Source: Dehalococcoidia bacterium
GTDB taxonomy: Bacteria > Chloroflexota > Dehalococcoidia > Lucifugimonadales > UBA826
Direction of reading: 5' to 3'
NCBI GenBank assembly: GCA_029936675.1
Contig: JAPYSB010000007.1
Span: 1 to 64,000 of the forward strand
DNA length: 64,000 nt
In this document: one piece after another, positions 11,610 through 22,930 of the stretch
Numbering within the stretch: position 1 is the first letter of the stretch
How the letters are laid out: every line of letters begins with the position of its first letter
Program-made: the position numbers and the translations under genes
The notes under the pieces: model-generated
Told to the model about the DNA's origin: nothing
The model's database searches: none
Seen by the model: only the letters and a program-made list of their open reading frames with translations

Positions 11610-11699
11610 CGGAGAGAGTGGGATTCGAACCCACGGTTCCCCTTGTGAGGGAACACGCGATTTCCAGTCGCGCCTATTCGGCCACTCTAGCATCTCTCC
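11610..11699 (-). tRNA. tRNA-Ser (GGA)
   Basis: Minus-strand GGAGAGA acceptor, anticodon loop CTGGAAA, long variable arm, GTGGGTTCGAATCCCAC T-arm; followed by genomic CCA (11607-11609). Confidence 0.95.
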
Positions 11700-11726
11700 A
11701 TATTGATCGTTCCGGGTCCTCTACGG

Positions 11727-11813
11727 CGGAGAGAGTGGGATTCGAACCCACGATGAGATTACTCCCATACTGGTTTTCGAGACCAGCGCCTTAGTCCGCT
11801 CGGCCATCTCTCC
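11727..11813 (-). tRNA. tRNA-Ser (CGA)
   Basis: Minus-strand GGAGAGA acceptor, anticodon stem CTGGT/ACCAG with loop CTCGAAA, long variable arm, T-arm; CCA not encoded. Confidence 0.95.
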
Positions 11814-21616: not shown

Positions 21617-22672
21617 CTACGAATTAAGTGCATTATCAGCCCATAGGATTATTTCTTCAGTTTTGTCCCAACCAACACAGGCATCTGTAATTGATACACC
21701 ATACTCCAGGGTACCTGGATCATTACCAAGTTTCTGACTTCCAGGATTTATATTGCTCTCAAGCATCACTCCCACAATGCTATTGTTCCCGCCTGCTCGC
21801 TGTGAAATCACATCTTCAAACACCGAAGGCTGTCTTTCGTGATCTTTATTAGAGTTACCATGACTGCAATCAATTATTAATCGCTGGTCCAACCCCCCGT
21901 TGGATAAAACTTCATTAGCCGATTTTATTGAATCTGAGTCATAGTTAGGACCTAATTTACCCCCTCTCAACACCAAATGGCCATCTGGATTACCACCAGT
22001 TCTTAAAACACACACGTGCCCATCAGGCCCAGTCCCTACATATGAATGCTGGCTGCGGGCGGCCAATATACCATCCACCGCGGTCTCAAAACTTCCATCC
22101 GTACCATTCTTGAACCCAACCGGAATTCCAATTGCACTCGCCATCTGTCTATGGGTTTGACTCTCAGTTGTCCTTGCACCTATTGCAACCCAAGAAACTA
22201 AATCTTCAAAATAATGCGGGACTACAGGGTCCAAAACCTCACAAGCTGCAGGCATTCCCATGTCATTGATTTCTTGCAGCAATCGCCTTGCTCGCTGTAA
22301 TCCTTGTGAAATATCAAATGTCTCATCGAGCCCAGGATCATTTATCAGACCCTTCCAACCTACCGTTGTTCTAGGTTTCTCAAAATATACTCTCATCACA
22401 ACATATATTTTTTCACTAAGCCGATCTCTCAGTTCAATCAGTCTTCGAGCATAATCCAGAGCGGCTTCCTCGTCATGAATAGAGCAAGGTCCCGTTATTA
22501 TCATTACTTTATCGGCATCGCCATGGAGAATATTTTTTATTGTCTTTCTAGCCTCTTGAACGGTTAAAGCGGCATTATCAGATCTGGGAAATCTGTCTAC
22601 TAGCTCTAGGGGGCTAAACAAGTGATTTGAAGAAAACCCCAACCCTTGGACATGGCTTTTTTGACTGCTCAT
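21617..22672 (-). CDS. 3-deoxy-7-phosphoheptulonate synthase (AroF/G/H type)
   Basis: VMIITGPCSIHDEEAALDYA, VMRVYFEKPRTTVGWKGLINDP, IDCSHGNSNKDH; ATG at 22672 with GAGG upstream (track starts at TTG 22684). Confidence 0.96.
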   Translation of the reverse strand: MSSQKSHVQGLGFSSNHLFSPLELVDRFPRSDNAALTVQEARKTIKNILHGDADKVMIITGPCSIHDEEAALDYARRLIELRDRLSEKIYVVMRVYFEKPRTTVGWKGLINDPGLDETFDISQGLQRARRLLQEINDMGMPAACEVLDPVVPHYFEDLVSWVAIGARTTESQTHRQMASAIGIPVGFKNGTDGSFETAVDGILAARSQHSYVGTGPDGHVCVLRTGGNPDGHLVLRGGKLGPNYDSDSIKSANEVLSNGGLDQRLIIDCSHGNSNKDHERQPSVFEDVISQRAGGNNSIVGVMLESNINPGSQKLGNDPGTLEYGVSITDACVGWDKTEEIILWADNALNS

Positions 22673-22742: not shown

Positions 22743-22778
22743 AAAAAAAAAAGCCCCAATCGCTACCGATTGTGGGCT
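22743..22778 (-). terminator. Rho-independent terminator in the DAHP synthase leader (attenuator)
   Basis: Minus-strand AGCCC(A)CAATCG-gtag-CGATTGGGGCT followed by a T-run. Confidence 0.85.
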
Positions 22779-22801
22779 CCTGTCTGACTTTGGATATATT
22801 C

Positions 22802-22891
22802 CTAGAGTTTACACAAGTCCTTTATCGGCAGCTGACTTAAGCTACTAAAATAATAATAAAAGTGTGTGTGTTTATAGAATTTATTTTCCAT
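22802..22891 (-). CDS. Aromatic-rich leader peptide of the DAHP synthase attenuator
   Basis: 29 aa MENKFYKHTHFYYYFSSLSQLPIKDLCKL; TTT TAT TAT TAT TTT block upstream of the terminator; not in the supplied ORF track. Confidence 0.75.
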   Translation of the reverse strand: MENKFYKHTHFYYYFSSLSQLPIKDLCKL

Positions 22892-22901
22892 AGCATGCCG
22901 G

Positions 22902-22930
22902 ATAGTATACTCTTTCACAAATGGTGTCAA
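22902..22930 (-). promoter_or_regulatory. Predicted sigma70-type promoter of the DAHP synthase leader
   Basis: Minus-strand TTGACA (22925-22930), N17, TACTAT (22902-22907). Confidence 0.65.

Follow-up and report, generated by a model that had tools for sequence, protein, structure and literature searches.

The DAHP synthase gene of this Dehalococcoidia bacterium is very probably controlled by a ribosome-mediated transcription attenuator that responds to the supply of tyrosine (and phenylalanine). The window analysed here (the whole stretch of 64,000 nucleotides) carries a gene for a class I-alpha DAHP synthase, which catalyses the first step in making Tyr, Phe and Trp, and upstream of it a leader region with a short ORF and a terminator whose T-run ends ~70 nt ahead of the gene. 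No second I-alpha copy and no I-beta copy were found when the genome was searched. Furthermore, no leader of this kind was found in this genome before trpE or the prephenate dehydratase gene, and control therefore seems to be placed on the entry step of the pathway. The gene upstream of trpE (locus L183, contig C3 of the same genome) resembles tryptophanyl-tRNA synthetase by eye, and no Trp leader was found there. The elements of the leader region and the gene are as follows.

22925..22930, minus strand: -35 box TTGACA, read from the sequence; a TTGAC box is present in 28 of 33 relatives
22902..22907, minus strand: predicted -10 box TACTAT, after a 17-nt spacer, called from its consensus match alone
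22802..22891, minus strand: near-leaderless leader peptide ORF MENKFYKHTHFYYYFSSLSQLPIKDLCKL, 29 codons from ATG 22891 to TAG; position, Y/F run and synonymous changes conserved
22847..22861, minus strand: putative control codons TTT TAT TAT TAT TTT (FYYYF); the Tyr/Phe run is kept across the order
22828..22845, minus strand: protector hairpin of segment 1 with segment 2, 6 bp (GUAGCU 22845-22840 / AGCUGC 22833-22828), -6.6 kcal/mol
22824..22832, minus strand: segment 2, GCUGCCGAU, 5' strand of the antiterminator, covarying with segment 3
22762..22770, minus strand: segment 3, AUCGGUAGC, common to antiterminator and terminator (end of the terminator 5' arm plus loop), supported by covariation
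22743..22778, minus strand: intrinsic terminator, stem-loop 22778-22752 with T-run 22752-22743, -16.6 kcal/mol, covarying stem
21617..22672, minus strand: class I-alpha DAHP synthase, 351 aa, ATG 22672 with GAGG at 22682-22679 (TIGR00034 aroFGH, 459 bits; PF00793)

An earlier note, made from the letters of this DNA, had claimed a TTGACA-N17-TACTAT promoter, a 29-codon ORF with FYYYF, a terminator with T-run behind it, a 9-bp antiterminator with one G-U pair and a small competing hairpin. All of these are present when the minus strand is read directly, the terminator (AGCCC(A)CAATCG-GTAG-CGATTGGGGCT, ten T in the run) starting 23 nt past the leader stop and the small hairpin measuring 6 bp. The -10 box can alternatively be read as TATACT (22909-22904) with a 15-nt spacer. 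Segments 2 and 3 form the antiterminator with -13.6 kcal/mol, and the fold of the 160-nt leader has z = -3.9, none of 200 shuffles being equally stable. The leader thus combines the hallmarks of an attenuator, namely an ORF with a Tyr/Phe run, a terminator before the gene, an antiterminator exclusive with this terminator and a protector beside the control codons.

In the proposed mechanism, the transcript would begin with the leader AUG or a few nucleotides ahead of it, and the ribosome would load on the near-leaderless ORF. When charged tRNA-Tyr or tRNA-Phe runs short, we infer that the ribosome stalls on FYYYF, masking the 5' arm of the protector; segment 2 would then be free for segment 3, no terminator would form and DAHP synthase would be made. 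If Tyr and Phe are ample, the ribosome would proceed over segment 2, which would later refold with segment 1, while segment 3 would pair with the 3' arm of the terminator and transcription would end at the T-run. In folding calculations with the ribosome edge placed at codons 11-16 and the RNA ending after segment 3, the pairing probability of segments 2 and 3 is 0.98-0.99; from about codon 21 on, the ribosome covers segment 2 (assuming an E. coli-like footprint). Without a ribosome, the equilibrium probability of the antiterminator is 0.99 before the 3' arm of the terminator is made and 0.82 on the full leader, unlike in the E. coli trp case, and a slightly longer RNA folds as terminator plus protector. 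As the antiterminator is favoured without a ribosome, the moving ribosome rather than the protector alone would be expected to drive termination, and its passage over segment 2 may matter for termination as much as the protector hairpin.

The leader with its Tyr/Phe run is located directly upstream of the orthologous gene in all genomes of the genus (8/8), in 13 of 15 genomes of the family (these eight and five of the seven others) and in approximately 20 of 47 sampled loci elsewhere in the order, about half of the loci sampled in the order being without it; presence was judged by hand curation, since a strict hairpin finder, which overlooked terminators with bulges, returned the leader in 26/62 loci only. 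Examples from the rest of the order are MRVPNRYAYYYYYFTGPTAAGEGQVRGT (L030), MNSVRTYYWNYYFLGLAGGGLLREQ (L026) and MNNSYTYGYFGYSFYFTGVTADRVMVP (L022). In the own family, the leader is absent from L009 and L010, which looks like loss. In L023, promoter and terminator are retained and the Tyr/Phe run is degenerate. At many leader-free loci, DAHP synthase stands behind a gene for an AroH-like chorismate mutase (identity by eye); an apparent AroH-like gene precedes, and no leader lies directly upstream of DAHP synthase, in L028, L111, L115, L116, L118, L119, L120, L121 and L123.

The earlier note had proposed aligning the leaders of relatives, and when this is done the F/Y codons are found at the same place. 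Among 19 non-redundant leaders, each of the two positions ahead of the final Phe codon is Tyr in 15, with TAT and TAC exchanged, and this exchange with Tyr kept points to selection on the peptide rather than on the RNA alone. In 34 leaders, Tyr accounts for 13.2% and Phe for 8.6% of the residues, which is 4.4 and 2.2 times an assumed background. The response to Phe/Tyr that the note had suggested is thus supported by the conserved codons and by compensatory changes in the stems (see below), and can be refined to a putative response to Tyr more than to Phe; we infer Tyr to be the main signal.

An attenuator of the same build that senses Phe only or mainly, with the Tyr codons of little effect, appears unlikely, though there is something to be said for it. 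The last codon of the run is Phe in 17 of the 19 non-redundant leaders, some leaders in other classes are Phe-rich, and aroF of C. glutamicum, according to PMC11802643, responds to Phe and not to Tyr limitation despite its Phe-Tyr-Phe leader. However, Tyr outnumbers Phe in the leaders of both enzyme classes: the best 8-residue window has on average 3.15 Tyr and 1.68 Phe before I-alpha genes, and 3.76 Tyr and 1.90 Phe before the I-beta genes described below. The enzyme may point in the same direction, as YVG of the window protein aligns with FVG of the Tyr-sensitive AroF and with FLS of chain 9j7h, so that it has Gly where this AroF has Gly, a single residue which does not prove the effector. 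We take this position, which sets effector specificity, to correspond to Gly226 in yeast Aro4 and Ser211 in E. coli AroG, Gly presumably being the Tyr-sensitive AroF/Aro4 type.

In a MAFFT alignment of 28 leaders (19 of them non-redundant at <70% identity), the 9-bp antiterminator pairs in 78.8% of the cells; its covariation score is 0.237, compared with 0.179 +- 0.019 for shuffled data (reached in 0/500) and a maximum of 0.109 when the segments are slid. The 11-bp terminator stem scores 0.362 against 0.237 in shuffled data (0/500), and according to RNAalifold 10 of 12 terminator pairs carry compensatory changes. Because kinship may inflate such tests, whole 3' segments were swapped among the 19 leaders with <70% identity: the observed score was reached in 0/1000 swaps for the 6-bp antiterminator core, in 36/1000 for the full 9-bp antiterminator and in 0/1000 for the terminator. 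The compensatory changes for which the earlier note had suggested to look are therefore seen in both stems. In 26 of 28 leaders, a protector hairpin that begins a few bases past the final aromatic codon reaches z below -1. Segments 1 and 3 are near-identical (ACCGGC) in many relatives, where they are rivals for segment 2 (GCCGGU).

These data also bear on the reading that the hairpin is an ordinary terminator, constitutive or controlled by a ligand (riboswitch, T-box, protein-bound leader), and that the short ORF is meaningless, which we consider very improbable. The hairpin is indeed strong, and the antiterminator forms at equilibrium without a ribosome. Moreover, ORFs in which at least 5 of 8 residues are F/Y number 11 across both strands of the AT-rich 64-kb window, and one arose in 5/2000 shuffles of the 188-nt region; the ORF alone is thus weak evidence, and it is the comparison that carries the case. 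Such an ORF is present in 22 of 62 orthologous upstream regions, against a mean of 0.76 and a maximum of 3 after shuffling, and synonymous changes leave the aromatic residues intact, their position being in register with the protector hairpin. In addition, a search of the window at Rfam gathering scores found no T-box or other Rfam RNA at the leader. The sole Rfam matches in the window are two closely spaced tRNA genes (11610-11813, minus strand).

Translation of the leader ORF, which is not preceded by a Shine-Dalgarno sequence, would thus rest on near-leaderless initiation. This the earlier note had suggested for the single leader, and it appears to be a feature of the group, judging from promoter spacing: in 28 of 33 relatives the distance from the TTGAC box to the start of the leader is 36-41 nt, which puts the start codon ~0-5 nt from the predicted transcription start. 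The note had also pointed to a second ATG 5 nt upstream. This ATG (22896) exists, and as it lies at the expected transcription start, i.e. in the classical leaderless position, its frame MLWKINSINTHTFIIILVA (IIILVA) could in principle be the true leader, of Ile/Leu/Val type. We rejected this frame as scarcely credible: it is not conserved (the start is GTG in L005-L008, and in L006 a stop ends the frame after seven codons), DAHP synthase has no part in making branched-chain amino acids, and the frame conserved across the order is always the Tyr/Phe one. Finally, a chance meeting of an AT-rich ORF with the terminator of a neighbouring gene, with no regulation at all, can practically be dismissed, for although F/Y-rich ORFs arise easily in AT-rich DNA, the element recurs across the order, both stems covary, and the upstream neighbour is divergent, so that the terminator cannot serve it.

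Leaders of this kind are found beyond the order as well. A covariance model (R1) built from I-alpha leaders only matched three leaders in other orders (L150, L151, L152) with E = 3e-4 to 8e-4. They precede a DAHP synthase of class I-beta (TIGR01361 plus a ferredoxin-like domain, tested for L151), and the next gene in L150 and L151 is aroB by eye. As the filter of the 393-genome R1 scan was too strict for presence counts, presence was counted from the regions upstream of protein matches: I-beta loci at >=60% identity carry the leader in 21/21 cases (L153-L173; e.g., MLNVKSFKNYYYFTKTSLLGR in L160 and MRKYYVYYYFTWCPQGTSGRYGVVA in L163), and no leader is present at any inspected locus of an I-beta copy with <50% identity. 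All these leaders (L150, L151, L152 and L153-L173) are Tyr-rich and have terminators of the CCTCCC/GGGAGG type. The I-beta loci with a leader probably include Dehalococcoides and Dehalogenimonas (family f54). Common descent of the I-beta and I-alpha leaders is possible, and we tentatively suggest that the Tyr-dominant near-leaderless attenuator may be a standing module of Dehalococcoidia, retained before DAHP synthase while the enzyme was exchanged for one of the other class (I-alpha or I-beta), organohalide-respiring lineages included. A second R1 match in the own genome (L146, E = 3.1) is weak, has no aromatic gene nearby as read, and was discarded. In other Chloroflexota classes, aromatic-rich leaders are present at 3 of 20 sampled I-alpha loci (L186, L188, L192), two of them being rich in Phe and Trp (GFFYFWFSYF in L188). 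Two deltaproteobacterial DAHP synthase loci, L063 and L086, have aromatic leaders (KAYRYYYCYYY and FFFWFYF) with terminators within 420 nt upstream.

According to a 2010 survey that itself contributed a Firmicutes case, leader-peptide systems had until then been recorded in Proteobacteria and Actinobacteria only (PMC2965389). Our search of the open literature found no report of such attenuation in Chloroflexota, including Dehalococcoides or SAR202, which does not establish that no such report exists; the leaders described here would place peptide-leader attenuation of aromatic synthesis in this phylum. They would also account for some 55 small ORFs of related genomes, and regulation may outlast the replacement of the enzyme (I-alpha vs I-beta). 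In addition, the naturally varied set of leaders bears on how translation starts on a near-leaderless ORF and on whether an attenuator can sense Tyr, given that PMC1262725 assigns phenylalanine to attenuators and tyrosine to T-boxes.

This kind of attenuator is itself known, and the points that appear notable, as far as comparison of sequences goes, are the dominance of Tyr, the near-leaderless start and the presence before two classes of DAHP synthase. E. coli pheA (pheL) and trp (trpL) likewise unite control codons with protector, antiterminator and terminator hairpins in a single leader; however, these use Phe or Trp codons and a Shine-Dalgarno-led leader and control other genes (PMC11802643 and general knowledge). 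Conserved triple complementarity has been described for trp attenuators (PMC1262725). The actinobacterial trp and leuS attenuators (PMC1262725) and the Firmicutes his leader (PMC2965389) were likewise predicted by comparison from a leader peptide and alternative hairpins, but concern other amino acids and genes. The ilvBNC leader of C. glutamicum has three hairpins, one of them an anti-antiterminator, and its leaderless peptide lacks a ribosome binding site (PMC11857589, PMC4046766), whereas its control codons are branched-chain ones and the operon is a different one. By its logic and target gene, the closest known case is aroR-aroF of C. glutamicum (Neshat et al. 2014), likened here by its description in the literature. 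According to PMC11802643 and PMC4046766, its leader aroR lies upstream of aroF, contains Phe-Tyr-Phe and responds to Phe limitation only. Both systems place a short leader with aromatic codons and a putative or known attenuator before a DAHP synthase gene; in contrast to the actinobacterial system with its Phe-Tyr-Phe, the one proposed here belongs to Chloroflexota, has a Tyr-dominant run and precedes two classes of DAHP synthase.
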